20,193 bases of DNA from a virus (IMGVR_UViG_3300034073_002022:1-20193); one strand, 5' to 3'. Shown: positions 2,658 to 20,157, counted from the stretch's first letter. Numbers and translations: made by a program. Notes: a model not told the origin generated them from the letters alone.

Positions 2658-3755
2658 TTATTGTTTGGCAAGTTGCAGCTCTCCATCATTGGTAATTGTC
2701 ACCGTCCACACGCCGCCATCCGGGCTTTCAAGGTCAAAGCTAGTAGCAACATTGGCCGGAAGCGGAGAAGGGCTGGTCGAGGTGATGAGGTCTGCCGAGA
2801 TTGTTGCCGCGCGGCGGAAGGTTTGACGCACGCTGCCTTCGCTGACTTCGACTTCCAGATTTACGTTGGTGGTTCCCGCGCTGATGAGCGCGGCGACTTC
2901 CGAAGTGTTAAAACTGACGTTGGCCCCCACTCCTTTTGCCCCGGCCAAAGTCGAGCCAACCACCGCAACATCGGCGTAGTCGCGGCCAGAGGATCGCCCG
3001 CCATAGACCAGCGTGAACTCCTTGCGCGGAATGCCAGAGACAGCTATCTGCGGAGCGCCGTTGTCAGCCAGCCCCGCCGCGACAATAGCCGCTTGAACCT
3101 CCGCCGCTGTGGCATCGTAGTCTATTTTGGGGGTCGTGATGGCGGGGACTGCCGCCGTGCCGCCGCCGCTTGTCACTTGGGCGTTGATCGCTGTTCCGTT
3201 GGCCGAGGTGGCAATGGAAAAAGTGTCTTTGGTCGAATCGACCACGATGTAACTGGCGTTGGCGAAAGTGCCGCCGCTGATCGTAAAGGCCGAAAGCGTG
3301 ACGGGCAGACCGCTGTAAAGGCCATGATCGGCGGCAGTAAAGACGCCCGCCGAAACGCTGCTGACGGTAACGTTGCGGGCGGGGAATTGCAGGGAATATC
3401 CTCCCTCGGCGGGGACGGCCCCGCTGAAAGTTATTTTTTGAATCTCACTTGTGCCGCTGGCCCCGGTCACAAGGCTTGTCACGCTGGCGGTAACGGTGGT
3501 CGTGAGGGCAGTCCATGCCGTTTGTAGGGCGGCGGGCGTCGTGGTGCCTACGGCAAATTTGACCGTGGCCCCCGACATATCAAGGTATTCGTAAGGCTGG
3601 TTCGGGTCTTCTGTCGGCTTGAGAAACAGAAGCTCGATAGCCTCAACATCCTCATCGAACCACGCAGGATCGGACGCGGGCAGAGTCGAATCCGGGGACG
3701 CGACGAACTGCCGTGCTTGGACATCCAGAAAAAAGCGGCGCGCCTGCAAGGCCAT
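2658..3755 (-). CDS. Tail/baseplate fibre-like protein
   Basis: 365 residues, rich in Ala, Ser, Thr and Val as in beta-structured tail proteins. Residues 37-75 (IELLFLKPTED....YLDMSGATVKFAVG) resemble the BppU-N-like start seen in the 120-residue protein encoded at 625-987. Residues 128-190 (VSSVSAGVFTAADHGLYSGLPVTL...VDSTKDTFSIATS) match a module often found in phage fibres, of the form 'HGL..G..V.....Y.V...D..TF.I'. The start ATG lies 13 bases after a TTGACA box and has no Shine-Dalgarno. It is the first gene of the final coupled block; the next gene follows one base after its stop. Probably a structural protein at the tail tip; exact role not known. Confidence 0.75.
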   Translation of the reverse strand: MALQARRFFLDVQARQFVASPDSTLPASDPAWFDEDVEAIELLFLKPTEDPNQPYEYLDMSGATVKFAVGTTTPAALQTAWTALTTTVTASVTSLVTGASGTSEIQKITFSGAVPAEGGYSLQFPARNVTVSSVSAGVFTAADHGLYSGLPVTLSAFTISGGTFANASYIVVDSTKDTFSIATSANGTAINAQVTSGGGTAAVPAITTPKIDYDATAAEVQAAIVAAGLADNGAPQIAVSGIPRKEFTLVYGGRSSGRDYADVAVVGSTLAGAKGVGANVSFNTSEVAALISAGTTNVNLEVEVSEGSVRQTFRRAATISADLITSTSPSPLPANVATSFDLESPDGGVWTVTITNDGELQLAKQ

Positions 3756-3784
3756 GCCGCTTGTCGGGTGTCAAACAGGCGCGC
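3729..3784 (-). promoter_or_regulatory. Two competing hairpins over a start codon, one terminator-like
   Basis: Hairpin one has perfect 9-bp arms GCGCGCCTG / CAGGCGCGC (3776-3784 with 3738-3746), and its 29-base loop holds the TTGACA box and the ATG. Hairpin two has 7-bp arms AAGCGGC / GCCGCTT (3756-3762 with 3733-3739), an inner GCCT/AGGC pairing, and runs into six U (3729-3734). The arms overlap, so only one can form. The second looks like an intrinsic terminator at the very start of the gene, as in attenuation. Function is inference. Confidence 0.4.
3769..3774 (-). promoter_or_regulatory. TTGACA start-linked box
   Basis: TTGACA with 13 bases to the ATG at 3755. It lies in the loop of a 9-bp inverted repeat, and no Shine-Dalgarno is visible between box and start. 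Confidence 0.55.
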
Positions 3785-4021
3785 TCAGTATTGGTCGGCC
3801 CTGTCGCAGCAGCCCGAAATGATCTCCCCCTCGCGGAACTGGTCGGCCGCCGAGACGGCATAGCCGCGATATTTGCGCCTGATGCGGAAGAAGTCGCTCG
3901 GCTTAAAGCACCAAAACTGATCGGCGGTGCGGATTTGCGCGGCGGCTTGGCAGTCGTCCAGATACGCCACGGGCATTTTGGCGGCCTTGGCGTAGATTTC
4001 TTGAGAAGCAACGCAAATCAT
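3785..4021 (-). CDS. Small hypothetical tail-cluster protein
   Basis: 78 residues. ATG overlaps the stop of the upstream gene by four bases, which supports real translation. Five cysteines (positions 3, 24, 38, 71, 72), a basic aromatic centre (FKPSDFFRIRRKYRGY) and an end GCCDRADQY. I do not recognise the family. It sits between a Cys-rich protein and the tail fibre block, so a small structural or assembly role is possible. Confidence 0.6.
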   Translation of the reverse strand: MICVASQEIYAKAAKMPVAYLDDCQAAAQIRTADQFWCFKPSDFFRIRRKYRGYAVSAADQFREGEIISGCCDRADQY

Positions 4022-4725
4022 GGGGGCGAAGAGGATAGAGAAACTGTAATGGTAAAACTTGCGGATTCTACAACCTCAGTGACTGGAAGAATTTGAGTCG
4101 GAAACACGCGCACAATGTTTCGGAAATGCGGCACGCCGAAAGCAATTCCTGACGAGGCGCTAGGTATGCCGCCGGAAAACCTTCGTTCGCTTGCTTCAAA
4201 ATCTACCACATCCGAAAGATTTAACTGAGCCCGAACGCGAGCCGAATGTGTCACATGAAGGCAAAATTTTTGAGGACTATCAAAGACCTTTAGCGAGGCG
4301 CTAAGACTACCAAAAACCACCCCGTTTAAGTTTTGCACGCCTCCGGTAAAAAATGTCGTTTTTGTTCCCACGGTTCCAATTTGCTCTTCAAATTGCGCGC
4401 CAAAACCGCACCCACTTCCAGAAAAGTTGTAAGACTTGTCGTGGCTTATTTCATATTCATACAAGCCAGCGCCGCCGCCAAAACCATTGAAGCTCCCTCC
4501 GGCCTGTAGCTGCATTCTCATTGAATAAGTGCCGCCTGCATAAATAGCTGCCGCAGTCGCTCTAGTGATGCGTCCAGCAGCTCCGTCAATGGGGGCAACG
4601 CAAGAGGCAACGCCAGCACACGGAAGAGTGATTATCGGACCTACTTCCGTGAAACAGCATTCGCATGACGGCTTTCCGTTTTTAAGAACAACCTTGCCGT
4701 TTTGCAGCTTAATGGTCGAAGACAT
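4018..4725 (-). CDS. Hypothetical tail-tip protein with Cys-rich N-terminus
   Basis: 235 residues. The start codon directly follows the stop of the upstream gene with no gap. The N-terminus reads KLQNGKVVLKNGKPSCECC, followed by two more Cys near residues 36-42. The rest is Gly/Ser-rich and beta-like (GGSFNGFGGGAGLYEYEISHD; FFTGGVQNLNGVVFGSLSASL). DNA composition is clearly more AT-rich than in the head genes. Likely a virion surface protein of the tail tip by position. The four clustered cysteines could bind metal or form disulphides. No family recognised. Confidence 0.65.
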   Translation of the reverse strand: MSSTIKLQNGKVVLKNGKPSCECCFTEVGPIITLPCAGVASCVAPIDGAAGRITRATAAAIYAGGTYSMRMQLQAGGSFNGFGGGAGLYEYEISHDKSYNFSGSGCGFGAQFEEQIGTVGTKTTFFTGGVQNLNGVVFGSLSASLKVFDSPQKFCLHVTHSARVRAQLNLSDVVDFEASERRFSGGIPSASSGIAFGVPHFRNIVRVFPTQILPVTEVVESASFTITVSLSSSPP

Positions 4726-5100
4726 TTAGGTCGTGCAAGCCTCGGTCGCCAGCCATGCCAGCGCCCCGTTTTGAGATCCTAAAACATAAACACCAGAAGA
4801 CGGAGGCGGCGGAACAACAACGATAGATGACCATGCGGCGTTTTTTCTTGCGTAAGTTGTTCCGTCACTTGGCGCGTCTCCTACTGGTGTCGCGCCTTGA
4901 TTTAGCTCTTGTGCCTCTGGAAACAGCCGCAAAAACCACCCGTCCGGCGTTTCGTCAATGGCGTATTGGCGGTTGTTGCCGTCCTGCGCCAGCGGTTTGA
5001 GCTTGGCAAAGTTGGCATCCAAATCGCGCGCGGGAATGCGATAGGGTGGCCCCGCCGGGTCTTTGCCGCCAAGTTGCGTGCTAAACTTGAGCAATTCCAT
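4726..5100 (-). CDS. Hypothetical tail-tip protein
   Basis: 124 residues, starting one base after the upstream stop and ending directly at the next start. The N-terminal half (FSTQLGGKDPAGPPYRIPARDLDANFAKLKPL) looks globular. The C-terminal half has fibre-like features: APSDGTTYARKNAAWSSIVVVPPPP, a proline run, then GVYVLGSQNGALAWLATEACTT. The segment 'DGTTYARKNAAW' is like the 'YVRKNGAW' motif frequent in phage fibres. Probably a small fibre or tail-tip adaptor. Confidence 0.65.
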   Translation of the reverse strand: MELLKFSTQLGGKDPAGPPYRIPARDLDANFAKLKPLAQDGNNRQYAIDETPDGWFLRLFPEAQELNQGATPVGDAPSDGTTYARKNAAWSSIVVVPPPPSSGVYVLGSQNGALAWLATEACTT

Positions 5101-5101
5101 T

Positions 5102-5776
5102 TTAGAAAATGCGCTGGCTTACCTCGTAAATGCCGCTGCTGCTTTTTGTGTAAGTGTAGGTTCCGCGAGATGAGCGCGACTTGCTGGTGGTTTCCACGGT
5201 GGCCGCGCGCCACTGACCAAACACAAAGGCAGTCTGTCCGCTGATTTCGCCAACCGACTTGTTGAACGGCAATCCAACCGATCCTTTGACTTCCGGCAGG
5301 GCTCGCGGGTTCTTGGCCTCGACGCGCACGGTGGTCGAAATGTAGTCGAAGGAAACATTGACCTGTCCTTCGACGGTGATGGTGGTTCCGAGATTGCCCG
5401 CCGTGCGAATGCTGCCTGTTACTGTGGCGCTGAAGTTACGCTGCTCCGTGCTTTCGGTAAGGATCACTTCGCCGGGGTCAAGGCTGGCCGCTGAGTAGCG
5501 TGCGTTGAAGTAGGTTAGCCCGTTCTGCGTGCTGGTGGTTAAGTCGTAGAGCTTGGGCGCGCCGTCGATGCGTAGCTGCGACATCGAGGCAGGGATGGCC
5601 GTGGGCGGCTGCGCTCCCGTGCGGAACTTGCCGATGTGGTTGTTGGCGAATGCAGCAAGGCAGCAATAGTCGGCCTCATAGTTGAGTGTGCCATCGTCGG
5701 TGGTCGAATAGCTGCGGCGAAGGACGGCAAGCCCCCCAGCGGTCAGCGATGCGTTGGCTTTAACGATGGAGGCCAT
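5102..5776 (-). CDS. Minor tail protein (distal tail position)
   Basis: 224 residues. Its ATG shares one base with the tape-measure stop (TAATG), so it is coupled to it. It has a beta-rich composition with long strands (NFSATVTGSIRTAGNLGTTITVEGQVNVSFDYISTTVRVEA) and a Tyr/Ser-rich end (SRSSRGTYTYTKSSSGIYEV). In lambda-like phages the gene after the tape measure is a distal-tail or tail-tip protein (gpM position), which makes that role likely here. No sequence similarity to gpM is evident by eye. Confidence 0.65.
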   Translation of the reverse strand: MASIVKANASLTAGGLAVLRRSYSTTDDGTLNYEADYCCLAAFANNHIGKFRTGAQPPTAIPASMSQLRIDGAPKLYDLTTSTQNGLTYFNARYSAASLDPGEVILTESTEQRNFSATVTGSIRTAGNLGTTITVEGQVNVSFDYISTTVRVEAKNPRALPEVKGSVGLPFNKSVGEISGQTAFVFGQWRAATVETTSKSRSSRGTYTYTKSSSGIYEVSQRIF

Positions 5777-7464
5777 TAGACAAGGACGGGTTGAGGGAGT
5801 TTTCCGTTTAGCTCCTCAAGGAATTTGGCGACTTTTTGGAGGGTGGTTTCGGTGGCGATTTTTTCGGATTCGGACTTGGTTGATGTTGCCTGCTTGGCCG
5901 CGGCAGACTCTTGGCGCTTGCGTGCAGCTTCGGGAGTTGCGGCCTGTTGGGCCATTTGCCCAAAGGCTTCTTTTTTGGCTTGTAGATATTGAGCATCAAG
6001 GCGAATCCGCATTTTGGTTTGCTGCGGCCCGCTGGCGCTTGAAGATTTTATTGCATCAATCTCTCGCGCATAGATTTGCTCAATTTGTTTGAGTTTGTCT
6101 GCAACTCCAGAGGCGGCTTGCTGTATTTGGGCGGAGGTTGCGGCCTGAGTTGTTCGCGCTGCGACAGGCTCTTGACCCATCGCACCTTGAAAATTGGCAA
6201 CAGCCCTGCCTGCATAGTATGCCTCACCAAACAAATCTTGGCGGTTGTAGACGCCTTGCCCGGCGCGCATAAATGCGCCGCCTGCCTGCGACATTCCTTG
6301 GCGCATTTGCTCGCTGGCTGCGTGGTAGGCATCGGCGGCTTTGTTGGCTTCTTGACGCGCCGCTTCGCCAAGTCCGTCAAACATTTTGCCAGCAACAGGA
6401 ACGCGAGACGCAGCCTCAAGCGCCTTGGCAATAGCGTCCACAATGGCAAACTCAAAAGCGCGCGCAGCCTTTAGCAACGCGCCCTGCACCACATCTCCAA
6501 CGCCCGTCCAGAAATCGCCAGATACGATCAAGTTTACCAATCCCCTAAATGCCGCCATGACTTGCGCGGCAATTTCGTTGGATATGTCTGCGCCAACGCT
6601 CAAAAGCGTATTGCCAAGAGCTTCAAGAGCCTTGAGGGGATTAGTGGCAACAAAGCGCGCCAGATTGCCAACGCTTAGGCCCGCGCCTGCGGCATCTACT
6701 TTGGAAAGCGCATTGGCAAGATCGTTGGCTCCCTGAGCCCCGGCCAGCGCCCCCACGGCAAACTCGTTGAGCTTGTTGCCTATTGAATTGGTGAGCTTAT
6801 CTCCAAGTTCGTCTAGGCTTTGGTTGGTTTTGTCTAAGATTGCCGGAAGGCTTCCAAGTTCTTGGCGCGCGTTAGAAAGTTCGCCCTCAAAGTTTTTTAG
6901 CAAAGTTGTTACCTTACCGCCGGCTCTGGTTCCAAAAATCAGCATTGAAGCGTCTGCGGCGGTTCCGGCGTCTTCAATTCGGTTAAGGCCAGCAGCAAGC
7001 AATCGCATTTGCTCCAACGGCGTTTTGCCGCGCAAATCTTCAAAAGAAACCCCAAGAATTGCGGCGGCGGTTTTTGCAGCGGCCATTCCGCGCCCCAAGT
7101 TCCCGATAAACGCTTGCATTTTGCCGATGGTTTGGCCGACTCGATCTGCGCCGACTCCGGCGTTGGCAAACGCTCTTTCCAGTATCGACAAATTGCCCGC
7201 GCTTTCTCCTGTGGCGCTGGACAAATCGTTAAGCCGCCCGCCCATATCCAAAGCGTTTTTGAAAGAATTGATGACGGTATACATTCCGCCAAACGCAGCG
7301 GTTAAGGCGACGAGGCGACGGCCAAGGGCAGAAAAAGCAGAGTTCATGCCCTGCACTTGGCCGTTGATGAGATTGCGCGCGCGCTGAACGTCGCGCGGCA
7401 TGGTCATTACCGCTTTGCTGAATTGGCTGGTGTCAGCCCCAAACTTGAAAAGCGTGCCAAACAT
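5776..7464 (-). CDS. Tail tape measure protein
   Basis: 562 residues, long, Ala/Gly-rich and mostly helical. The N-terminus FGTLFKFGADTSQFSKAVMTMPRDVQRARNLI is the typical tape-measure opening (variants of 'gadtS.f..al..m...v.'). A hydrophobic helix follows near residues 48-66 (GRRLVALTAAFGGMYTVINSF). Then come GGRLNDLSSATGESAGNLSILERAFANAGVGADRVGQTIGKMQ and LGVSFEDLRGKTPLEQM, which are standard tape-measure segments. The end is basic and coiled-coil-like. The protein fills the tail tube and sets its length; at the usual ~0.15 nm per residue this suggests a tail near 80 nm. The start has a TTGACA box 16 bases upstream and a moderate GAGGG. Confidence 0.93.
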   Translation of the reverse strand: MFGTLFKFGADTSQFSKAVMTMPRDVQRARNLINGQVQGMNSAFSALGRRLVALTAAFGGMYTVINSFKNALDMGGRLNDLSSATGESAGNLSILERAFANAGVGADRVGQTIGKMQAFIGNLGRGMAAAKTAAAILGVSFEDLRGKTPLEQMRLLAAGLNRIEDAGTAADASMLIFGTRAGGKVTTLLKNFEGELSNARQELGSLPAILDKTNQSLDELGDKLTNSIGNKLNEFAVGALAGAQGANDLANALSKVDAAGAGLSVGNLARFVATNPLKALEALGNTLLSVGADISNEIAAQVMAAFRGLVNLIVSGDFWTGVGDVVQGALLKAARAFEFAIVDAIAKALEAASRVPVAGKMFDGLGEAARQEANKAADAYHAASEQMRQGMSQAGGAFMRAGQGVYNRQDLFGEAYYAGRAVANFQGAMGQEPVAARTTQAATSAQIQQAASGVADKLKQIEQIYAREIDAIKSSSASGPQQTKMRIRLDAQYLQAKKEAFGQMAQQAATPEAARKRQESAAAKQATSTKSESEKIATETTLQKVAKFLEELNGKLPQPVLV

Positions 7465-7480: not shown

Positions 7481-7486
7481 TGTCAA
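7481..7486 (-). promoter_or_regulatory. TTGACA start-linked box
   Basis: 16 bases to the tape-measure ATG at 7464. The TGA within the box is also the stop codon of the upstream gene. Confidence 0.55.
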
Positions 7487-8226
7487 GCCGCCTTCAGAAG
7501 CTGCGGGTATTTCTTAGTTATGGCGTCCACCTTGCCTTTGCCGCGCTGCTTCATGGCGCTGTTGAACGTGGTCACGCGGCTGCGGACGGCGCTGGCCAAG
7601 GCTTGGTGGCCGCGCGCATGACGAGTCGAGAGCTTGCTGAAGTTGCCGCCCTCAATCACAAACTCTTTGCCCTTGCCGCCCTTGTGTGCTTTGACGGCCA
7701 GCTTGTAGCTGTTCTTGGCGCGCGACACTTCTGCCGGGGCGTTGATTGGCAGGACAAGGACGCGGGCTATTTCCAACCAGTGTTTTGCCGCTAGCCCGAT
7801 CTTTTCCAAGCGTTCTTTGGTGCGCTCTTGGCGGCGGCGCTTAAGTTCCGTCCACAGCCAATCGGGATGCAGATGCTTGTATCCAGCGGGCAGAGAATAA
7901 AGCAGCGCCCCGCGTTCCCTGCCGCGCCGTTCGGCAGCTTGCTTGCGTAGTCGCGCTTGCTCGTTAAGTGGGATCGTCCTGCCTTTGGTTGATTGTGGCC
8001 CGCGATAGTCAATGTCTTGCCGCGTCATTTTTTGCTTGTTCATGTAGGCAAGCACTTTGCCGGGGTCTGATTTTTTGGTGCGCCCTATTGCCAGTTCCAA
8101 GATGCGCGCCACTTCATGCTCTAGCACGCTTTGAAAATCCCTGCCGCTGACCAGCGCCAATTCATTGACGCAAAAGGTGAATGCGTCCATCTGCGGACCT
8201 TTTTGGGCAATGACTTTGACGGCCAT
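7483..8226 (-). CDS. Basic hypothetical protein between tail chaperone and tape measure
   Basis: 247 residues, strongly basic, starting one base after the stop of the frameshifted chaperone. The N-terminus (FTFCVNELALVSGRDFQSVLEHEVARILELAIGRT) looks helical. The middle is Arg/Lys-rich (RRRQERTKERLEKIGLAAKHWLEIARVL). The C-terminal third reads NSYKLAVKAHKGGKGKEFVIEGG...RHARGHQALASAVRSRVTTFNSAMK. I do not recognise it. Lambda has nothing between gpG/T and the tape measure, so this is an extra tail-assembly or structural gene. An alternative start is the ATG 12 codons in. Confidence 0.7.
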   Translation of the reverse strand: MAVKVIAQKGPQMDAFTFCVNELALVSGRDFQSVLEHEVARILELAIGRTKKSDPGKVLAYMNKQKMTRQDIDYRGPQSTKGRTIPLNEQARLRKQAAERRGRERGALLYSLPAGYKHLHPDWLWTELKRRRQERTKERLEKIGLAAKHWLEIARVLVLPINAPAEVSRAKNSYKLAVKAHKGGKGKEFVIEGGNFSKLSTRHARGHQALASAVRSRVTTFNSAMKQRGKGKVDAITKKYPQLLKAA

Positions 8227-8227
8227 G

Positions 8228-8455
8228 CTAAAGCCCCGCTGTCAGCGCGTCAGATAACAATGCGTCAATGTCTTTGGCCCCGCCTTCTCCGCTATCCAGC
8301 CAGCGCGGCTGGCGACCGTTGGCTAGGTCATCGTAGACAAGCAACTGGTTTAGCGCGGCCAGCGGCAAGTCCCACATGGCTTGCTCAAGCGTGATGCCGT
8401 ATTTAGCGACCCGCGCCGCAAGGCAAAGCTGCCAAGCTGGACGGGCCGCTAGGCT
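8228..8455 (-). CDS. Tail assembly chaperone, gpT-like extension made by -1 frameshift
   Basis: 75 codons with no start of their own that matter: they are read after ribosomes slip at the CCCAAAA site at the end of the upstream gene. The slipped frame continues SLAARPAWQLCLAARVAKYGITLEQAMWDLPLAALNQLLVYDDLANG and ends at TAG one base before the next ATG. Fusion length is 131 + 75 = 206 residues. In lambda the gpG-T fusion recruits tail tube subunits to gpG-coated tape measure. Same position, size and mechanism here. The open frame reaches back to 8536, but that part is not coding-like. Confidence 0.8.
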   Translation of the reverse strand, partial: SLAARPAWQLCLAARVAKYGITLEQAMWDLPLAALNQLLVYDDLANGRQPRWLDSGEGGAKDIDALLSDALTAGL

Positions 8456-8847
8456 TTTGGGCCAACGTCTCCGGGTGTGACGGGCGCTGCCTGAGTAATT
8501 GTTGCGGCGACTCGCTCCATCTGAGACGTGATCCACGGAACAAAGTTGAAAAGGTCTTCCACGGGCCGGGTGTCCATGAAGTCGTAAATGTCGGAGCGCA
8601 AATCGTCCATCGTGCTAACTTTGCGGCGAATATCGCTAATCGGTTTGCTGTGCAAAAACACGAACGAATAGACGGCAAAAGCGTAATCGCCGTCTTGCTC
8701 GCCTGTGATAAAGCTGTTTTTCAGTCGGGCCAAAAGGCTCCACGTTGCCGAGGTCACGGGCCGAAGCTCAATTCCGTTGACGGTTTCGTTGCCTTGAAGC
8801 GCGGCGGCTTCCAGCAACCCTTCTCTTTTCTCAGGGTCAATATCCAT
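8449..8847 (-). CDS. Tail assembly chaperone, gpG-like (short product)
   Basis: 132 residues: MDIDPEKREGLLEAAALQGNETVNGIELRPVTSATWSLLARLKNSF..., an acidic helical protein typical of the first tail chaperone, which coats the tape measure before tail tube polymerisation. It ends GPKA-stop, and the codons GGC CCA AAA GCC TAG contain the slippery heptamer that leads to the longer fusion. It is placed directly upstream of the tape-measure block. The start is 16 bases after a TTGACA box and lacks a Shine-Dalgarno. A strong terminator lies just upstream, separating it from the tail-tube-position genes. Confidence 0.82.
   Translation of the reverse strand: MDIDPEKREGLLEAAALQGNETVNGIELRPVTSATWSLLARLKNSFITGEQDGDYAFAVYSFVFLHSKPISDIRRKVSTMDDLRSDIYDFMDTRPVEDLFNFVPWITSQMERVAATITQAAPVTPGDVGPKA
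8455..8461 (-). promoter_or_regulatory. -1 ribosomal frameshift site CCCAAAA
   Basis: Reads C CCA AAA in the zero frame, an exact X XXY YYZ heptamer, one codon before the TAG stop. The -1 frame continues for 75 codons. A small GGCA/TGCC hairpin lies downstream but no strong stimulator is obvious. Confidence 0.8.
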
Positions 8848-8863: not shown

Positions 8864-8869
8864 TGTCAA
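8864..8869 (-). promoter_or_regulatory. TTGACA start-linked box
   Basis: 16 bases to the chaperone ATG at 8847, in the U-rich tail of the preceding terminator. Confidence 0.55.
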
Positions 8870-9367: not shown

Positions 9368-9715
9368 TTAGAAGCCGTGGTTGCTCGCGCCGATGGTGAC
9401 TTGCTGGAAGTCGTTCGGGGCGCGGTTCACGGCCACGGAATCGACGTAGAAAGTGCCAGTGACGCCGCCGAGGCCCGCCGTGGCATTCGCCAAAGTGATC
9501 GAGGCGCCGATGGTCGGGGTGGTGCTCTTCAGGTAGCCGCTCATGTTGGCGACTGATTTTTTACCGTGGTAGGCCACGGCGATGTGGTCGCCATCCTCAT
9601 CGACCACGATGGTTTTGTCGCTGTCCGAGGTCTGCGAGAAGGAGGTAAAAACGGCCACGGTTTCCGCCGAGCCGCCGAAAGTGATGGAAGTTAAGCCAAT
9701 GACAGTTGCCGCCAT
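9368..9715 (-). CDS. Small beta-rich protein, candidate tail tube (major tail) protein
   Basis: 115 residues: VIGLTSITFGGSAETVAVFTSFSQTSDSDKTIVVDEDGDHIAVAYHGKKSVANMSGYLKSTTP...ITLAN...GTFYVDSVAVNRAPNDFQQVTIGAS. The alternating strands and the late 'V.S.....PNDFQQVTI' fit tail-tube-like folds. Its place between the tail terminator and tail chaperones is where the major tail protein lies in lambda-like phages. It is shorter than most tube proteins, so this is a candidate only. The start is 16 bases after a TTGACA box and has no Shine-Dalgarno. Confidence 0.7.
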   Translation of the reverse strand: MAATVIGLTSITFGGSAETVAVFTSFSQTSDSDKTIVVDEDGDHIAVAYHGKKSVANMSGYLKSTTPTIGASITLANATAGLGGVTGTFYVDSVAVNRAPNDFQQVTIGASNHGF

Positions 9716-9731: not shown

Positions 9732-9737
9732 TGTCAA
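9732..9737 (-). promoter_or_regulatory. TTGACA start-linked box
   Basis: 16 bases to the ATG at 9715. A CTGACA lies seven bases further upstream. Confidence 0.55.
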
Positions 9738-10360: not shown

Positions 10361-10662
10361 TTAGCGTCGGGCGATTGCAGTGTCAGGTCGATGGTGGCCG
10401 TGTCTGTGTCTATTCCGGTAATGCGGTAGCGGCGGTCTTGGAATTTCACGATGCCGCCGAGTCGGAAGGCCGGGGCGCCCGCTTTAAGAACGGTAGCGGT
10501 CAGCCCGCGCTGCGCCTCAAAGCCCCCCTCGCCCAAGGCGTTGCCATAAGTTTCTTCTCCCACCACGGCCAAGTAACGGCGCTCGCGGTATTCGATTTCG
10601 TCGCGGATGGTGCCGATGGCTTCGGCGCTGGCGGCGGTGTAAGCCTGGGCAAATTGGCTCAT
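10357..10662 (-). CDS. Head-tail connector, gpFII-like
   Basis: 101 residues. ATG overlaps the glycosyltransferase stop by four bases. The N-terminal helix (SQFAQAYTAASAEAIGTIRDEIEYRERRY) is followed by a small beta-barrel: GGFEAQRGLTATVLKAGAPAFRLGGIVKFQDRRYRITGIDTDTATIDLTLQS. The 'lG..v.f.dr.YrI.gid.D......l.L' pattern and size resemble lambda gpFII, which joins the finished head to the tail. A CTGACA, one base off the recurring box, lies 13 bases upstream. Role inferred from size, fold pattern and place. Confidence 0.7.
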   Translation of the reverse strand: MSQFAQAYTAASAEAIGTIRDEIEYRERRYLAVVGEETYGNALGEGGFEAQRGLTATVLKAGAPAFRLGGIVKFQDRRYRITGIDTDTATIDLTLQSPDAK

Positions 10663-12443
10663 GCGGTGGCCGTGGTGTCAGCCTTCGGCACAAGGTCGGG
10701 GTTGCGGCGGCGGAAGATCTCCTCGCCGAGCTTGTAGGCTTCGGATGAGTTTTCCATCGCGTAGGTTTCATCGGACGGCACGGCGGGATTCCAGAAGGGA
10801 TGCTCGTGCTTGAAAACGATGTCGGACGGCACAAGGAGCCCGCTGTTTTTGGCGCGCAGGGAAAATTCGGTGTCGGAAAAGACGCCCGCGTAGTCTGCGG
10901 CAAGGATGTTTTGCGCGCCGTAGCCGAGGCGCTTGAAGGTCGGGCGCGTGACGCAAAACGTGACCATGAGGTCATCATTGCGGTAGCCGTCGCGGATTTG
11001 CAGGATGGCTGGTTGGTTGGCGTCCACCTTGGCGCGCAGGGCTTCCTCAACGGCAAGATCCCAATGCAGCGGCGGGAAGACGTCATCCTGTGCGGTGACG
11101 ATGATTTGCCCGGTGGCCGCGTTGGTGGCCGCGTTGTAGTTTTGGACGGCGGTGCCGCCGGGGCGATCAAGGTTGCCAGCGGGCGAAAGCGCGTGGCGGA
11201 AGCGCGAGAGCAGGCCCACGGATTCCTCGTCATCGGCAGAGAAGCCAAAGATGTATTCGATGCGCTCCGGGTTGGCGGCGGCATCGAGCCAGCGTTTGCG
11301 GGTGGCGGCGGCTTGCTGGGCGCGGGCGCGGGTCGGGTGGCAAACGCTGATGCTGTATCTGTGGCCTTTGAGTCGAGCGCGCTCGATCTCGTCGGCCCTG
11401 TCGGCTTGCCCGGCCATGCGGAGCCATTGCGTCCAAAGCGCCTCCCCTGCCCAGCCGTAAAGCCCGTCGCGGTGCGTCCACGGCTTATCCACGGGACGCG
11501 GCAGGGCCATCATGGCGCGGATATACGCCTCGGCAGTCACAAGGTCGCCAAGGTCGAGATGCATGGCGCCGAGCAGGGCCAAGGCTTCGCGGCGGTTGGG
11601 CTGCGTTTTGTAGGCGCTGTGGAGCGCCGTCATCATGGCTTTGTATTCTGCCGAGTCCGTTTCAAGGATCGGCGGGCGGGCCAGTTCGCAGATGTTGAGG
11701 CAAAGCTCGTAGCGTTCGGTGGGCTTGAGGCCGGGATGGGCCAACGCCTTTTTGGCAAGCTCCATCGCTTCGGCCTTACGCCCGTGGCCCATGTATTCGC
11801 CGTGGAGGTGGTAAATCTCAGAAACGGTGCGCTCGGCTTCGGGGATCGACTCCAAGATGGTCAGGTTGCGGTTGTTGCCCTGCTTGGGCTCATCGTCGGG
11901 CAGATGCACCACGGTCGGCTCGTCGCACTTGGCAATGCGGGCATCGGCGGCAAGCTGGAAGTTCTCGTGGATGCGGTTGACCCACTTGCCCTTGTCGCGG
12001 CGCACAAGGCGCTCGCGGATATTGTGGGCGATGCCGCGCCCGGCGACATTGTGGAACAGTGCAAAGGCGTCGAAGTTCTCGCCGTGCTTTTCCAATAGCT
12101 CGTGCAGGGCGGGCGCGAAGTTCGGCCCCGGCGTGTCATCGGAATCCACCCAGAGTGCCCACGGCTTGGTGGCGAGGTCGAAGGATTGCTGCCGCGCGGC
12201 GCCAAAATTATCGACGTGCGGCCATTGGTTGCCGTGGTCGTTGGCATAGACGCCGTAGGTGGCGCCGTGCTTCTGGCACACTTCGGCCACCTTGATGCTC
12301 TTGGCCTCGGCCCCAGTGGCGTGGACTACGACAATTTCGCTGACGGCTGGCGCGAATTGAGTCAAGCAACGGTCAAGCCGTTTGGGTTCGTTGCCGACGA
12401 TGACGCAAAGCGCGATCTGCTCGCGCGGGCTTTTGTTCTCCAT
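10659..12443 (-). CDS. Tandem glycosyltransferase-like protein (GT2 – helical repeats – GT-like)
   Basis: 594 residues. Residues 10-165 are a GT-A family 2 domain: ALCVIVGNEPKRLDRCLTQF, EIVVVHATG and WALWVDSDDTPG, with the sugar-nucleotide/metal motif DSDD at 100-103, then RIHENFQL near 157. Residues 200-355 are helical, TPR-like. Residues 363-560 look like a second GT-A-type domain: YSISVCHPTRARAQQA, EYIFGFSADDEES, IIVTAQDDVFPP (DD at 453-454), DTEFSLRAKNSG, HEHPFWNP. Likely transfers sugars in the cytoplasm, perhaps to virion proteins since it lies between capsid and connector genes. No signal peptide or membrane span. A terminator separates it from the capsid gene; its start has a TTGACA box 17 bases upstream. 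Confidence 0.85.
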   Translation of the reverse strand: MENKSPREQIALCVIVGNEPKRLDRCLTQFAPAVSEIVVVHATGAEAKSIKVAEVCQKHGATYGVYANDHGNQWPHVDNFGAARQQSFDLATKPWALWVDSDDTPGPNFAPALHELLEKHGENFDAFALFHNVAGRGIAHNIRERLVRRDKGKWVNRIHENFQLAADARIAKCDEPTVVHLPDDEPKQGNNRNLTILESIPEAERTVSEIYHLHGEYMGHGRKAEAMELAKKALAHPGLKPTERYELCLNICELARPPILETDSAEYKAMMTALHSAYKTQPNRREALALLGAMHLDLGDLVTAEAYIRAMMALPRPVDKPWTHRDGLYGWAGEALWTQWLRMAGQADRADEIERARLKGHRYSISVCHPTRARAQQAAATRKRWLDAAANPERIEYIFGFSADDEESVGLLSRFRHALSPAGNLDRPGGTAVQNYNAATNAATGQIIVTAQDDVFPPLHWDLAVEEALRAKVDANQPAILQIRDGYRNDDLMVTFCVTRPTFKRLGYGAQNILAADYAGVFSDTEFSLRAKNSGLLVPSDIVFKHEHPFWNPAVPSDETYAMENSSEAYKLGEEIFRRRNPDLVPKADTTATA

Positions 12444-12460: not shown

Positions 12461-12466
12461 TGTCAA
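12461..12466 (-). promoter_or_regulatory. TTGACA start-linked box
   Basis: 17 bases to the glycosyltransferase ATG at 12443; no Shine-Dalgarno. Follows the terminator hairpin directly. Confidence 0.55.
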
Positions 12467-13427: not shown

Positions 13428-13802
13428 TTAGGAGTAAAAGGTTTTGAGGATCGCGGCTTTGTTGGCGCGGAAGAACGTGGTGGCCTCGTCGCCTTCGAGG
13501 GCGGCGAACTTCTGCGCGGCGGTCAGTTCCGGCTCGGCAGGCACGACAGCCACGGGCTCAATGCCAACAGAAGCGACGATTGCCGCAGCTTGCTCACCAG
13601 CACTTTTGGACGCGGCGAGGAGATCGTTAATCTGCTCGTCCTTGCTCGCGCTCTCGGCGGTGAGGCGCTCCACTTCGGCCTTGAGGGTTTCGATTTCCTT
13701 GGCCGTCACTTCGTCGGCTTGCGCGCGGACGGTATCGGCTTCGACTTTGGCGTTCAGTTCGGCCTGGAGGGCGTCAACCTTCGCTTGAAGTTCGGCGTTC
13801 AT
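13428..13802 (-). CDS. Nested scaffolding protein (Nu3-like internal start)
   Basis: 124 residues in the same frame as the protease. ATG at 13802 is preceded by GAGGAAG seven bases upstream, the best ribosome site in the head genes, and by a TTGACA box 17 bases upstream. The product is a long coiled coil: MNAELQAKVDALQAELNAKV..., then KEIETLKAEVERLTAESASKDEQINDLLAA. It ends in a small basic C-terminal helix (FFRANKAAILKTF) suited to capsid binding. Lambda makes Nu3 scaffold from an internal start of the protease gene C in just this way. Confidence 0.8.
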   Translation of the reverse strand: MNAELQAKVDALQAELNAKVEADTVRAQADEVTAKEIETLKAEVERLTAESASKDEQINDLLAASKSAGEQAAAIVASVGIEPVAVVPAEPELTAAQKFAALEGDEATTFFRANKAAILKTFYS

Positions 13803-14855
13803 GTTAACTTCCTCGGAGTTGTCAACGGCCACGTCAGCGACGGGCTCTTCGACAACCGCTTCCGCGATGACTTCAGCGGGGGCGGCTTCCTCGGCCTTGA
13901 TGGTTTTGGTCGATTTACGGGCCATAGAGTTGGAAAAGGTGTCAAAGCGGGCGCGGGCGGCTTCGGGCGTGATGGAGGCGGCGGCTTCCATGCCGTCCTC
14001 GATATAGTCGGCAAAGCCAAGGGCCACCGCTTCCTCGGCGCCGAGCCATGTTTCCTCGTTCATCATGTCGCTGATCTCGTCGGCATCCATGCCCGTCTTG
14101 CGCTTGTAGGCGTTGATTAGCGTGCTTTTGAGCTTGTCGAGGACATCGGCTTCTTTGCGGAGATCGTCCGCGTCGCCCATGCTCATGCTCCAAGGATTGT
14201 GGATCATCAGCAGCGCGTTGTCGGCAATGGCAACTTCCTCGCCCGCCATCGCCACCACGGAGGCCATGCTTGCGGCAAGTGCTTCGACGTGAACGGTTAA
14301 GCCGCCTTTGTGCCGACGTAGTGCGTTATAGATTGCGGTGCCCTCAACAACACTTCCTCCGACAGAATTGATGCGGAGGTGAAGATGCTGGCCGGAAAGT
14401 TTTTTGAGGTCTGCGATGAACGCTTTCGCGCTCGTGCCTCCGAAACCAATTTCGTCAAATAAGGTGATCTCGGCTTCGCCGTCTTGGGTCGATTGAATTG
14501 CATACCATTTAGACTTTGCGGCCATGCCTTCGGCCTCGTTGTCAAGTTCATCGCTTTTGCGGTTGGCCCACGATTGCCCGGCGTCACCACCCCACAAGGC
14601 CCACGCAATGCGCCCGGCGCTCGGATAACCTTCTTCGCCGGGGCTGAAGCCCTCGCCTTTCTTGTCCACTTCGTGCCGCGCGAAGTAGGACTTCATGCGG
14701 CGCACAGTATCTGGCGAAAGGTTCTTGCGGTTCTTGATGTCGCGGGCGCGGGCCACGCCGACTTCGGTCCCGCCGCGATTGTATTCCTCGCGCCACGCCA
14801 GGCCGCGCTCGGCTTCTGCGGCCATCGCTTCGGTCGGCTTGAGGTCAACGGCCAT
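13428..14855 (-). CDS. Prohead maturation protease (ClpP-like, S14/S49 type) with C-terminal scaffold
   Basis: 475 residues from ATG at 14855, which overlaps the portal gene by 11 bases; the frame reaches 15053, but that part is not coding-like. Residues 1-100 are an extra domain (KPTEAMAAEAERGLAW...KNLSPDTVRRMKSYFARHEV...GYPSAGRIAWALWGGDAG). Residues 115-290 are the ClpP fold: LHLRINSVGGSVVEGTAIYNAL, nucleophile Ser196 in ALAASMAS, His219 in MIHNPW and Asp283 in GFADYIED. An acidic Ala/Val-rich linker (residues 310-350) leads to a coiled-coil scaffold. In-frame ATGs at codons 111, 311 and 352 each follow a TTGACA box. It processes capsid and scaffold during head maturation. The family placement is clear; which starts are used is inferred. 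Confidence 0.9.
   Translation of the reverse strand: MAVDLKPTEAMAAEAERGLAWREEYNRGGTEVGVARARDIKNRKNLSPDTVRRMKSYFARHEVDKKGEGFSPGEEGYPSAGRIAWALWGGDAGQSWANRKSDELDNEAEGMAAKSKWYAIQSTQDGEAEITLFDEIGFGGTSAKAFIADLKKLSGQHLHLRINSVGGSVVEGTAIYNALRRHKGGLTVHVEALAASMASVVAMAGEEVAIADNALLMIHNPWSMSMGDADDLRKEADVLDKLKSTLINAYKRKTGMDADEISDMMNEETWLGAEEAVALGFADYIEDGMEAAASITPEAARARFDTFSNSMARKSTKTIKAEEAAPAEVIAEAVVEEPVADVAVDNSEEVNMNAELQAKVDALQAELNAKVEADTVRAQADEVTAKEIETLKAEVERLTAESASKDEQINDLLAASKSAGEQAAAIVASVGIEPVAVVPAEPELTAAQKFAALEGDEATTFFRANKAAILKTFYS
13820..13825 (-). promoter_or_regulatory. TTGACA box before nested scaffold start
   Basis: 17 bases to the ATG at 13802; lies inside the protease frame, codons Val-Asp-Asn. 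Confidence 0.55.
13940..13945 (-). promoter_or_regulatory. TTGACA box before internal ATG 13925
   Basis: 14 bases to an in-frame ATG (MARKSTKTIK) at the end of the protease domain. A product from here would be linker plus scaffold, 165 residues. Confidence 0.45.
14540..14545 (-). promoter_or_regulatory. TTGACA box before internal ATG 14525
   Basis: 14 bases to an in-frame ATG (MAAKSKWYAI) exactly where the ClpP-like domain begins, as the N-terminus of stand-alone prohead proteases usually does. Confidence 0.5.
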
Positions 14856-16332
14856 CGGTCGCGGGTGCTTGTGCCGTGGTCGGCGGCGCAGGGTTGGGAT
14901 TGAAAGTGGCGATGCTGTCCGGGCTGATGCCAAACTCGGCAGACAAGTCGGCCAGATACTTGGCCTCGACGGCGCGCTGGCGCAGGGCGTCTTTCCATTC
15001 GATGCCGCGCTCGCTGTAGTCCTCGCTGTAGGTGCGAAGGCCCGCGCGGACATCGTTGAGGTTGGCTTGTGCCTCGCGTCCGTAGTCTACGGAAGCCGCA
15101 GCCGGGCGCTGCCATTCGACGCGCCACCAATTTTCGTTCTGCGGAATGAGGCCGCGCTGCATACCCAAGCTGATAACGTGAGCCCAAACGCGCGAGCAGA
15201 GGCGGTCAATCAGCAGGGCTTGGCGCTGCTCAAAGGTGCGTTGTGCGCGCACCAGCACGGCGCGCAGGGCTGCGCCGCCAGCATCAGCCGGACGCGCGGC
15301 AAACTCCCACGGCACGCCGATGTTAAGGCACACTTCGCGCAAAAGAAGGTCGCAAAACTCGCGGAAATTCTGGCTTGGGCGGTTGCTATTCCATGCCACG
15401 AGGTCTTCGCCAAGGCCGAGGCGCGGGATGGCGCCCCCGGCATTGCCGAGAGATTCGACGGTCACTTCGCTGTTGTCGGTGCTGTTGACGCTGTGGGTCG
15501 CCTCGCCAAAGAAGTCGGCGCCCTGCGGGTTGCTGCTCTTGATGGCGAGCGCGATATAGGAGGAAATCTTAATCGCCATCTTCTCAAAGCTAATGGCGTC
15601 GGACACATCGCGGAGGTGATTGATGGACGGCGCCAGCGGCGTGACGTAGCGCAATTCGTCGCCTTGGCTGGCCTCACCAACGTGGATCAGTTGCTGCGCC
15701 GGGATGTCCTCAAAACGCTGCGCGGGGTCCACGCCTTCGCCTACGAGATGGCGGTAGAAGATCGGGCGCAGTTGCGGATTGACCACCACGCCGTCGATGA
15801 TGTTTTGGCCACCCTCGCGGGCCAGCGGGTTGCTTGGCTCGTAGATGGAGGAGCGCGCGTCACCGATGCGGTGGGCGAGGATCAGTTGCAACGCGGGATA
15901 CCCGGTGCTTTGTGCCGTGGTGCGGAAGAAAACCTCGCCGTCGCGGTCGATGGCAACCGAGGCGATGCGCTGCATTTCGCGCCAAGTGTAACGGCCTTGG
16001 ATGTCGGCCACCCGGCTCCACTGCTCAAAGAAAGCCTCGGCGGCATTGTCCCATGCTTCATCGCCGCTGCGCGCCTGCGGGCGGATGCCGCTGCCTGTGA
16101 CGTAGCGGGCCTTCTCGGTGATAAGGCCGCGCACGAAGGGCATATTGTTGTAGACCCAACGCGACAGCTTCATTAGCCGCTCGCGGTCGGCGCCGGATAC
16201 GTCAATGTGCGAGTCGGTCGCCGTGGCGTTGTAGGGAAATCGGCGCTGGATCGAGGGCCGCGCGGCATCGTAGCTCTGAGCCTTCGGGCTGAAGGCTTTG
16301 GTCACAAGTTTCCAGCGGTCGGCCAATTTCAT
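14845..16332 (-). CDS. Portal protein, lambda gpB family
   Basis: 495 residues, a normal length for the lambda portal family. Typical features: DRERLMKLSRWVYNNMPFVRGLITEKARYVTGSGIRPQA near the start, EAFFEQWSRVADIQGRYTWREMQRIASVAIDRDGEVFFR, LQLILAHRIGD, and the later IGVPWEFAARPADAGGAALRAVLVRAQRTFEQRQALLIDRLCSRVWAHVI. It forms the dodecameric ring for DNA entry at one capsid vertex and docks terminase. The ATG overlaps the upstream stop by four bases, and its own end overlaps the protease by 11. The terL, small connector, portal, protease order is that of lambda A-W-B-C. Confidence 0.95.
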   Translation of the reverse strand: MKLADRWKLVTKAFSPKAQSYDAARPSIQRRFPYNATATDSHIDVSGADRERLMKLSRWVYNNMPFVRGLITEKARYVTGSGIRPQARSGDEAWDNAAEAFFEQWSRVADIQGRYTWREMQRIASVAIDRDGEVFFRTTAQSTGYPALQLILAHRIGDARSSIYEPSNPLAREGGQNIIDGVVVNPQLRPIFYRHLVGEGVDPAQRFEDIPAQQLIHVGEASQGDELRYVTPLAPSINHLRDVSDAISFEKMAIKISSYIALAIKSSNPQGADFFGEATHSVNSTDNSEVTVESLGNAGGAIPRLGLGEDLVAWNSNRPSQNFREFCDLLLREVCLNIGVPWEFAARPADAGGAALRAVLVRAQRTFEQRQALLIDRLCSRVWAHVISLGMQRGLIPQNENWWRVEWQRPAAASVDYGREAQANLNDVRAGLRTYSEDYSERGIEWKDALRQRAVEAKYLADLSAEFGISPDSIATFNPNPAPPTTAQAPATDGR

Positions 16333-16649
16333 ACGAGCGGATAGTTAAAGGCCGCAACGGCGGTCTTGTTCGTTTTCCTTGTCAGCCACAGTTCCAAGTT
16401 GGCGGCGCTCAAATCCTTAATCTGCTTCCAGCAGTAGAAAGCCAGATCGGCCACGGTCCCGGCGGTCTGGTCGGGTGGGAGCGAGTAGGAATACGACTTG
16501 CCACCCATCGAGGCGCTGACGAGAACGCGCCCGCCTTCCTTGGCGACGGTGAAATTGTTGGAGGCGATGGCCTCAAGTGCCGCGACCGTCTTTGTCGCGT
16601 CTTTGTTGTTGGCTACCCAGACCGAGAATACAAAGGAGCGCGGAGACAT
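16329..16649 (-). CDS. Small head protein in the gpW position
   Basis: 106 residues. A helix (DATKTVAALEAIAS) is followed by a two-strand hairpin (FTVAKEGGRVLVSASMGGKSYSYSLPP) and a second helix (VADLAFYCWKQIKDLSAANLELWL). Lambda gpW, the head-completion protein, has the same helix-hairpin-helix order and the same place just before the portal gene. Identity beyond that pattern is not visible, so gpW-like is a suggestion. The start is 16 bases after a TTGACA box. Confidence 0.7.
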   Translation of the reverse strand: MSPRSFVFSVWVANNKDATKTVAALEAIASNNFTVAKEGGRVLVSASMGGKSYSYSLPPDQTAGTVADLAFYCWKQIKDLSAANLELWLTRKTNKTAVAAFNYPLV

Positions 16650-16665: not shown

Positions 16666-16671
16666 TGTCAA
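16666..16671 (-). promoter_or_regulatory. TTGACA start-linked box
   Basis: 16 bases to the ATG at 16649, in the 26-base gap after the preceding gene; no Shine-Dalgarno. Confidence 0.55.
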
Positions 16672-16675
16672 TCGG

Positions 16676-16861: not shown

Positions 16862-17036
16862 CGTCGGCAAGCTCAATCGGTAGTTCCAGTTGCGGATCGG
16901 CGGCTTTGGTCCGTGCGATTTGCACGGTGTGCGCGTGGTGGATGACCACCTCGACGAGCTTTAGCGCAGCGGCAAGATCGTAGTCGTGCGCGGCGTTAAA
17001 GGTTGCAGCGGTTTGTTGGATGGTGTGGAGGTTCAT
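16851..17036 (-). CDS. Small hypothetical protein
   Basis: 61 residues: MNLHTIQQTAATFNAAHDYDLAAALKLVEVVIHHAHTVQIARTKAA..., ending acidic (ELPIELADDAR). Mostly helical. The ATG overlaps the upstream stop by four bases and GGAG lies about ten bases ahead. The frame is open further upstream to 17618, but that part is out of frame with two better genes. No family recognised. Confidence 0.6.
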   Translation of the reverse strand: MNLHTIQQTAATFNAAHDYDLAAALKLVEVVIHHAHTVQIARTKAADPQLELPIELADDAR

Positions 17037-17335: not shown

Positions 17336-17349
17336 TGTTCTGCCTCCGG

Positions 17350-17694
17350 TTATTTGACGACCATGCGGACGCGGCCATGCTGATCGAGCACTGCTCCGGT
17401 CTGCCGCTCGTATGCCGCGAGCAAGCGACGAGCCGAGTTGATGATTGAGGCGTAGCAGGGGTCAAACCCTCCACGACCCGACATTGATTCGTCGCCGTAG
17501 TAGGCGGCGTCGTTGAGCAGTTCGGGCATTGCCGGATCATCGACGCGCATGACGTAGCACTTGCCAGAGGTCTTGATGATTTCGGGCGTGGCGCATCCGC
17601 GCTCGCTGTGGTCATCAATGAACGTCGCAGGAAGTTTAATTGTTTGCGCGGCGGTGGTGTTCCCCGCGCCCGTTGGTGTGTTTTGTGTTCTCAT
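17350..17694 (-). CDS. Hypothetical protein, first gene of the cassette
   Basis: 114 residues. After a low-complexity start (MRTQNTPTGAGNTTAAQ) comes IKLPATFIDDHSERGCATPEIIKTSGKCYVMRVDDPAMPELLNDAAYYGDESM, then FDPCYASIINSARRLLAAYERQTGAVL. The 'lP..FIDDH.eRgc.tPe' and 'DA.yYgd....d......SArr...a' phrases seem conserved-looking, as in small phage proteins of unknown function, but I cannot name a family. It starts three or so bases after the predicted transcription start, so its message may be nearly leaderless. Confidence 0.65.
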   Translation of the reverse strand: MRTQNTPTGAGNTTAAQTIKLPATFIDDHSERGCATPEIIKTSGKCYVMRVDDPAMPELLNDAAYYGDESMSGRGGFDPCYASIINSARRLLAAYERQTGAVLDQHGRVRMVVK

Positions 17695-17696
17695 TA

Positions 17697-17766
17697 CGCC
17701 CCCACTATACGCAAGCCGCTGGCGTATGCAAGGAAAAAAATCACTTTTTTGAAAATTTTTTTGCCC
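17697..17766 (-). promoter_or_regulatory. Probable promoter with A/T-tract UP element
   Basis: On the minus strand, A- and T-tracts (17732-17766) are followed by TTGCAT (17726-17731), a 16-base spacer, and TATAGT (17704-17709), five of six matches to the -10 consensus. The start of transcription would fall near 17697, just before the ATG at 17694. This is the only AT-rich gap in the right half of the window. Confidence 0.6.
17707..17727. promoter_or_regulatory. 21-bp palindrome, operator-like
   Basis: Arms ATACGC / GCGTAT with inner AGC / GCT also pairing; only one mismatched pair across 21 bases. It fills the spacer and overlaps both promoter boxes, so a bound dimeric repressor would block the promoter. 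Confidence 0.55.
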
Positions 17767-17772
17767 TCTGCT

Positions 17773-17793
17773 AACCCCTTGATTTTGGGGGTT
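17773..17793. terminator. Weak hairpin after terminase large gene
   Basis: Arms AACCCC / GGGGTT with a nine-base loop, starting right after the TAA at 17794-17796. On the minus strand no U-run follows directly (A-rich instead), so termination there is doubtful. On the plus strand it is followed by only a few T. Confidence 0.3.
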
Positions 17794-19521: not shown

Positions 19522-19540
19522 GGCGCGTGCCTTCTCGGTG

Positions 19541-20131
19541 CTATCTGGAACCCACGCGCAGCGCATCGCCTGTATTGCTCAGGGTCGAGAAGACTTGCTC
19601 CAGATAGTCGGCCACGGCATCGCGCGCCAGTTCGGGGTCGTGCGGATTTGCGGCCATTGCGATGGCGCCGGGCATGGCTTCCAAAAGGGCGCGGAGCTTG
19701 CCGACTTCCTCGGCAATGACGGTCTGCACTTGGTCCCTGTGCATGAGGTTTTGGGCCTCTTGCTCGGAGCGGACCAAATCGCGCTTGCGGATCTCGTGGG
19801 CTTCTTCGGCGTCCTTCACCGTGCGGCTGGCGGCGCTGCGCTCTTGGATCGTGCTGGCGCGCTCAAAGTCATTGACCGCGATGCGGCGCAGCTTGTCGGT
19901 GACGGCTAGGTCGTCGGGCAGTTCGGGCAGGGCGGAGAGGCCGATGGGTTCCGGCGTTGGCGTTGGCTGGGCGCTAGACTTGGTGCGCTTGGCGCTCTGG
20001 TTAACTCGGCGCCACGCCAGTGCGTCTTTGACGCTGGTTAGCGGCATCCCGCGCTTGGCGGCTTTGGCTACGGCGGGTTGGCTGATGCCGAGAGCCTTTG
20101 CCATCTGGCCCTGCGATAACCCTTGGGACAT
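19541..20131 (-). CDS. Terminase small subunit
   Basis: 196 residues. A helix-turn-helix lies at residues 4-30 (GLSQGQMAKALGISQPAVAKAAKRGMPLTSVKDALAWRR), as in gpNu1-type DNA-binding subunits. The rest is a helical, charged oligomerisation region (DLAVTDKLRRIAVNDFERASTIQERSAASRTVKDAEEAHEIRKRDLVRSEQEAQNLM), then VIAEEVGKLRALLEAMPGAIA...DPELARDAVADYLEQVFSTL, typical of these proteins. It recognises the packaging site and loads the large subunit. Start is 13 bases after a TTGACA box and lies among GGTTAT repeats. Confidence 0.9.
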   Translation of the reverse strand: MSQGLSQGQMAKALGISQPAVAKAAKRGMPLTSVKDALAWRRVNQSAKRTKSSAQPTPTPEPIGLSALPELPDDLAVTDKLRRIAVNDFERASTIQERSAASRTVKDAEEAHEIRKRDLVRSEQEAQNLMHRDQVQTVIAEEVGKLRALLEAMPGAIAMAANPHDPELARDAVADYLEQVFSTLSNTGDALRVGSR

Positions 20132-20157
20132 AACCCATAACCATTGTCAAAGGTTAT
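20116..20157. promoter_or_regulatory. GGTTAT hexamer cluster at the small terminase start, candidate terminase binding site
   Basis: Three GGTTAT copies in direct orientation on the minus strand (20116-20121, 20130-20135, 20137-20142), 7 and 14 bases apart, plus one inverted copy (20152-20157). The outer pair forms ATAACC-N9-GGTTAT around the TTGACA box. Resembles the repeated R sites of cosB next to Nu1 in lambda, or an autoregulatory operator. Confidence 0.45.
20145..20150 (-). promoter_or_regulatory. TTGACA start-linked box
   Basis: 13 bases to the small terminase ATG at 20131; its TGA is also the stop of the partial upstream frame. Confidence 0.5.

Follow-up and report, generated by a model that had tools for sequence, protein, structure and literature searches.

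A TTGACA element tied to late-gene start codons in phages related to Verrucomicrobiota prophages, and a candidate HTH protein as its partner

Introduction

What is TTGACA, the consensus hexamer of the sigma70 -35 box, doing a short and nearly constant distance in front of phage start codons? The question is raised by a 20,193-bp virus record, analysed at its full length and referred to here as the window, in which all ten copies of the hexamer lie on the minus (coding) strand with an ATG 13-17 nt downstream, while the plus strand holds none. The number of copies is ordinary (7.3 expected) and it is their placement that is extraordinary. An ATG falls in the 13-17 range at 6.6% of random coding-strand positions, which gives a P of ~1.6e-12 for ten out of ten, and among the other hexamers with at least five copies in the window none is comparably linked to ATG, the next best reaching three out of five. 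A preliminary description had listed the coordinates and gaps of all ten copies, with which our recount agrees, and its judgement that the arrangement is not chance holds at the measured background in place of its assumed one of about 8%. The copies and two variant sites, all on the minus strand, are as follows.

20145..20150, minus strand: TTGACA, gap 13 to the ATG at 20131 of the terminase small subunit gene (20131-19541)
16666..16671, minus strand: TTGACA, gap 16 to the ATG at 16649 of a 106-aa gene between terminase and portal
14540..14545, minus strand: TTGACA, gap 14 to the in-frame ATG at 14525, putative start of a ClpP-like prohead protease domain
13940..13945, minus strand: TTGACA, gap 14 to the in-frame ATG at 13925, putative nested scaffold start (MARKSTK..), kept in relatives
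13820..13825, minus strand: TTGACA, gap 17 to the in-frame ATG at 13802, putative second nested scaffold start (MNAELQAKV..), kept in relatives
12461..12466, minus strand: TTGACA, gap 17 to the ATG at 12443 of a 594-aa gene
9732..9737, minus strand: TTGACA, gap 16 to the ATG at 9715 of a 115-aa gene
8864..8869, minus strand: TTGACA, gap 16 to the ATG at 8847 of a 132-aa gene, with a terminator-like hairpin directly upstream
7481..7486, minus strand: TTGACA, gap 16 to the ATG at 7464 of the tape measure gene
3769..3774, minus strand: TTGACA, gap 13 to the ATG at 3755 of a 365-aa late gene, probably a tail gene
10676..10681, minus strand: CTGACA variant, gap 13 to the ATG at 10662, a variant enriched in relatives
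8240..8245, minus strand: CTGACA variant, gap 13 to the ATG at 8226

A strong terminator-like hairpin also follows the capsid gene, directly upstream of the copy at 12461..12466, and across the wider collection such hairpins adjoin 14 of 93 TTGACA sites in viral loci and 4 of 88 in prophages. At 7481..7486 the gene upstream (8226-7483) ends on the TGA within the copy, and the motif's internal TGA stops the preceding gene in this way at several further sites.

Distribution among phages and prophages

A terminase search yielded 77 viral loci with terminases 60-98% identical, and the TTGACA copies on the coding strand of these loci and the window are followed by an ATG at a gap of 12-18 in 379 of 417 cases, compared to none of the 20 on the opposite strand; the main counts are on raw ATGs, our gene calls being home-made, and the sites are not independent of one another, since the viral loci and prophages are related by descent and several records are fragments. 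The motif search in related phages that had been named beforehand as a check thus finds the start linkage again. TTGACA at gaps of 13-17 stands far ahead of all hexamers in its linkage to starts (z 27), the next word, at 14, being one that overlaps it. In most Verrucomicrobiota prophages whose terminases are only 27-37% identical TTGACA is likewise start-linked, and in 320 kb of prophage sequence 71 of 136 copies have an ATG at 13-17 nt compared to 5 at 23-27 nt. The prophages of terminase relatives suggest that the window's phage infects Verrucomicrobiota, a suggestion that extends to the phylum and not to the host itself. The window-clade phages are probably temperate because eight out of ten genomes encode an integrase, and on the same grounds the idea that this clade is virulent and hence in no need of a repressor was discarded. 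Prophages with a PF03354 terminase were considered as a separate, unrelated phage class and were dropped as too few.

The CTGACA sites of the preliminary description are genuine, though CTGACA is the weaker form within the window's clade, where 25 of 88 copies in relatives have an ATG at 13-17 nt compared to 7-8 at control distances. In the prophages TTGACT is possibly a variant.

Host genes do not share this arrangement. Across 289 Verrucomicrobiota genomes TTGACA is no commoner 13-17 nt before an ATG than 23-27 nt before one, a control-distance search that rules out a host-wide start signal, and in a 400-kb sample of one prophage-bearing host genome the two ranges account for 9 and 6 of 83 copies. 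Several genomes whose raw counts were high (G168, G262, G245) proved to be TTGACA-rich with no positional preference and were rejected as users of the motif. The readable 3' ends of host 16S rRNA are ordinary (CCTCCTTTCT/CCTCCTTTTT; also as GGATCACCTCCTTTCT), with no complement of TTGACA and no variant anti-Shine-Dalgarno sequence among them, so that the 16S comparison proposed in advance returned nothing. TTGACA is a phage element and not a host start signal. The earlier reading therefore stands in part: the element is start-linked, is not a sigma70 promoter and may be a protein-binding site, as had been suggested, while the proposal of a host initiation element falls on the genome survey, the 400-kb sample and the 16S ends alike.

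Nested starts and the absence of Shine-Dalgarno sequences

Three copies in the window precede ATGs that lie in frame within a longer gene. In our reading these are true starts, that at 14525 belonging to the ClpP-like protease domain and those at 13925 and 13802 to a nested scaffold, the latter two in an in-frame arrangement like that of lambda C/Nu3. Both nested scaffold sites are conserved in relatives, and TTGACA also stands before an apparently homologous scaffold that is encoded as a separate gene (L256 17686). Judged from these sequences, TTGACA tracks the start codon and not the gene boundary, since it is present in front of the scaffold whether nested or separate. A pool of 141 dereplicated sites was used to examine fine structure, and none of these starts has a strong Shine-Dalgarno sequence, while any such sequence is present at 7%, which is lower than at random ATGs. 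Some Verrucomicrobia are themselves listed as Shine-Dalgarno-poor (PMC10783764).

Fine structure of the element

The spacer is C-rich at motif positions +6 to +12 and then G-rich at +16 and +17 (52% and 64% G, respectively), and the whole stretch between TTGACA and ATG is about 75-80% GC. Across gaps of 13 to 17 the G peak holds its distance to TTGACA and not to the ATG, and TTGACA and GG are for this reason a single unit behind which the ATG floats at 1-6 nt from the GG. Where a -10 element would be required, 16-18 nt downstream of TTGACA, there is no A/T signal and the position is occupied by the ATG, which confirms the preliminary verdict that a sigma70 promoter does not fit. Hairpins above threshold that carry the ATG in their loop are present at 19 of the 141 sites (13.5%) compared to 2-3 in shuffles, and at 2.1% of other called starts and 4.2% of random ATGs. 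Their sequences vary between sites and their 5' arms lie mostly at or upstream of the GG. A mini-hairpin in fixed register between TTGACA and ATG was rejected, as no pair was prominent after controlling for base composition.

The strand on which TTGACA is tolerated was measured in genes against synonymous-codon shuffles. In either phage set antisense copies (TGTCAA) reach 0.27 of the number expected from these shuffles, compared to 0.59 in the host sample, a deficit on the non-coding strand that a signal in translation does not readily account for. For sense copies away from starts the ratio is 0.07 in the window's clade, compared to 0.97 in the other prophages.

A candidate HTH partner protein

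The sole protein shared by the window clade and the prophages that has no obvious role in the virion or in packaging is an HTH protein of 170-200 aa, encoded for example at L256:1695-2264 and L254:5320-5865. Its gene lies at the boundary between early and late genes and in L009, a locus whose terminase is 97% identical to that of the window, precedes the large terminase gene by about 1.3 kb; the window itself ends before the point at which its own HTH gene would begin. The family was found in 11 of 11 motif-bearing prophages with enough sequence examined, plus six window-clade genomes. A profile of the family then matched three prophages that had been classed by motif alone (p105, p114 and p365), of which p114 matches weakly (E about 1e-7) and p365 carries its copy on the strand opposite its terminase, and it matched none of four motif-less prophages (p267, G060, G394 and G247). 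On the terminase (TerL) tree, motif and HTH protein occur together in four separate places beside relatives without either, and in viral contigs found by HTH alignment the top start-linked words again include TTGACA/GTTGAC.

The best solved relative of the HTH profile is ArdK (7bbq, E 1.4e-5), a match that is confined to the HTH and was obtained after the protein had already been picked by co-occurrence. Pfam KORA matches only below its cut-off, and a weak likeness to sigma region 4 (phrog_351, E 2.8e-4) is accompanied by no match to sigma region 2 in Pfam scans. ArdK was crystallised on GTATTGACACCTATTGACA, which contains TTGACA direct repeats, with R45 contacting a guanine of the site, and its recognition motif is reported to be identical to the HTH with which sigma70 touches the -35 box (PMC9723621). 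The HTH is homologous in the phage protein, and the guanine-contacting arginine is conserved (VTR/ITR) in most of its members. ArdK is however a repressor of about 100 aa that acts on paired sites at -35 boxes (PMC9723621), whereas the phage protein is nearly twice as long and its candidate sites are single and located at start codons. Phage members with a KQ-type (SKQ) recognition helix accompany TTTTGACA sites, with T at -1 in 17 of 20, compared to mostly GTTGACA and T at -1 in 42 of 168 for the [T/S]RA type (P 2e-7, where the SKQ type is represented by two phages only and the sites are not fully independent). In the divergent p114, G precedes TTGACA at five out of five sites. A predicted model of the protein is of low confidence outside the HTH (pLDDT 57.6), and a fold search with it gave no significant match. 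The iteron-like repeats that precede the HTH gene were considered as autoregulatory TTGACA sites and set aside as not general, and a PF00940 search for a phage RNA polymerase was uninformative, as no control genome matched.

The DNA-binding nature of the partner, the avoidance of antisense copies and the locking of GG to TTGACA together point to an element that works at the level of DNA over one that is a phage-only translation element, and the phage HTH protein probably acts on the TTGACA sites as DNA.

Comparison with known systems

The closest known kind of element is the start-associated sequences of cluster K mycobacteriophages (SAS/ESAS), although the phage element described there differs in sequence; we found no published naming of a TTGACA start element in Verrucomicrobiota phages in the open-access literature. 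SAS/ESAS are short asymmetric repeats, present 11-19 times per genome, nearly always in the same orientation and just upstream of start codons (mostly ATG), which are absent from the host genome, carry inverted repeats in about half of the cases and have no proven function (PMC3203893; PMC12699233). A start-locked repeat with one orientation and absent in the host is also what is found here. SAS is however a 13-bp sequence, GGGATAGGAGCCC, with a Shine-Dalgarno core, located 3-7 nt from the start of non-structural genes (PMC3203893; PMC12699233), whereas TTGACA is a 6-bp core with GG that lies 13-17 nt away from the starts of structural and late genes, has no Shine-Dalgarno sequence and comes with a candidate protein.

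The consensus of the L5 stoperators, GGTGGMTGTCAAG, resembles the reverse of TTGACA, a likeness which kept an L5-type stoperator among the rival explanations, with the nested starts speaking against it. Like TTGACA, the stoperators of L5 (cluster A) are asymmetric sites, more than 20 per genome, that are oriented with transcription and read by an HTH; unlike it, they measure 13 bp, lie in promoters or short spaces between genes and halt transcription, and the accessible text of the source states no start-codon distance rule (PMC9283540). Late promoters of jumbo phages (AR9 AACA-6N-TA/G, phiKZ TATG) likewise combine a short box with a purine start close downstream, and are numerous in each genome and in some cases inside genes, but they are used by phage multisubunit RNA polymerases and AR9 leaders measure 26-491 nt (PMC5312081), while the phages considered here have genomes of 35-37 kb, in which no such polymerase was noticed.

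Alternative explanations

Chance or an artefact of start calling might be entertained for a few sites in one window if there were nothing else, but given the P value obtained there and the recurrence at hundreds of sites in counts that used raw ATGs and no gene calls it is hardly credible. Ordinary sigma70 -35 boxes share the consensus hexamer, and yet with an ATG in the place of the -10 sequence and no such positional lock in host chromosomes this explanation is very improbable. A translation element, in which TTGACA in the mRNA would be a non-Shine-Dalgarno start signal acting through a ribosome that the phage has modified or through an RNA-binding factor of the phage and the HTH protein would be linked by descent only, has more to recommend it: the distance to the ATG is narrow, the nested scaffold starts are in frame, Shine-Dalgarno sequences are lacking, the motif often contains the upstream stop codon and RNA hairpins surround the ATG. 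It is nevertheless rather unlikely, as host genes do not use TTGACA and host 16S ends are ordinary, copies on the non-coding strand are avoided, the GG is tied to TTGACA instead of the ATG, structure at the ATG is raised where a start signal would have it lowered, and the partner's HTH is of the DNA-binding kind, with a solved relative that binds TTGACA.

The same relative lends itself to a different function at the DNA level, since ArdK and KorA are repressors. The HTH protein could shut off late genes in lysogeny, or stop read-through polymerase, in the manner of L5 stoperators or ArdK/KorA operators, which would suit phages that are probably temperate and a precedent in L5 where the asymmetric sites follow the direction of transcription (PMC9283540). 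A roadblock has however no use for a spacing of 13-17 nt to the ATG, nor for sites at start codons nested within another gene, it leaves the GG and the start-codon hairpins unexplained, and the HTH gene sits beside the terminase genes, in the place of a late activator, and not beside the integrase. Repression of this kind is thus unlikely, and the presence of sites at the nested start codons as well as at the start of the scaffold as a separate gene leads us to favour a positive role.

Proposed mechanism

It is proposed that TTGACA is a phage-specific late-gene DNA element that is read by the phage HTH protein as an unusual late promoter, a reading to which we give not far short of an even chance. 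A late promoter with RNA beginning at the GG is favoured because TTGACA follows the start codon and not the gene boundary. We infer binding by the HTH protein, the positive sign of its regulation, the start site and the short leaders from sequence features. The protein, with its sigma-region-4/ArdK-like recognition helix, would bind TTGACA and recruit RNA polymerase, and transcription would start at the purine-rich GG, 10-11 nt past TTGACA and 1-6 nt ahead of the ATG. In this way a separate near-leaderless mRNA without a Shine-Dalgarno sequence would be made for every gene so marked, and also for the scaffold that lies within the protease gene. The hairpin with the ATG in its loop would form in read-through RNA only and silence it, as the 5' arms, lying mostly at or upstream of the GG, would be missing from RNA begun at the GG. 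In the T4 lysozyme gene early read-through RNA is silent, a case which this scheme resembles. That all these parts hold together as a new class of late promoter, with an ArdK/sigma-4-like HTH reading TTGACA, a start at GG, near-leaderless mRNAs and AUG hairpins silencing read-through, is put forward more tentatively, as a possibility.

Several observations run against a promoter. A -10 element is lacking, and a spacer of about 75-80% GC is poorly suited to opening of the DNA. From its normal position on RNA polymerase, a sigma region 4-like protein would direct a start some 30 nt downstream, within the gene. Both ArdK and KorA act as repressors, and sense TTGACA away from starts is not avoided in the other prophages. 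The evidence is comparative throughout.

Implications

In a large set of phages, most of them uncultured, TTGACA provides a marker of gene starts and late genes, with nested starts overlooked by gene callers among them. It also brings a candidate protein for a type of start-associated phage repeat that has awaited an explanation since 2011. Should the promoter reading be true, these phages would have a promoter layout without a -10 element that is read by a relative of plasmid repressors, and if instead the translation reading is true, they would have a phage-only start signal in Shine-Dalgarno-poor hosts.

Structural genes

Two features of the window belong here:
1196-2689, a tail-fibre-like protein made of LTNFP-x-LLRTNG repeats
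13428-15053, a ClpP-like protease and scaffold in one common frame, with two nested scaffold starts

The nesting of scaffold starts within the protease gene is reminiscent of lambda C/Nu3, and the protease/scaffold of the window phage carries an additional N-terminal part that is fused in frame.

Sites and genes in the compared loci

TCAGAC is start-linked as well, with 33 of the 80 copies located 13-17 nt before an ATG in the pooled HTH-anchored viral loci L352-L404; these start-linked copies possibly represent one orthologous site. In L208, a locus of genome G325, a divergently oriented metallophosphoesterase-like gene (5089-5829, minus strand) is preceded by TTGACA on its own coding strand, approximately 16-17 nt before a GTG. 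L208 also encodes a second small protein (14276-14800) directly upstream of the HTH gene. In this protein sigma region 4 is clearly recognisable (phrog_351, E 7e-15), and it matches Q-like and activator families too; a pattern search of the other genomes did not detect it.

Iteron-like TGTCAAAAC / TTGACAGC repeats adjoined by a terminator-like hairpin are located upstream of the HTH gene in L256 (about 1500-1695) and likewise in L263, L262, L405, L407 and L408, while in L254 and L258 they are replaced by TTTGAACCC repeats. In L057-L066 (e.g. L058:45), TTGACA lies inside a GTTCACC...GGTGAAC repeat close to the contig end and upstream of the terminase genes, with a GTG about 15 nt downstream, and this region may be cos-like or regulatory.
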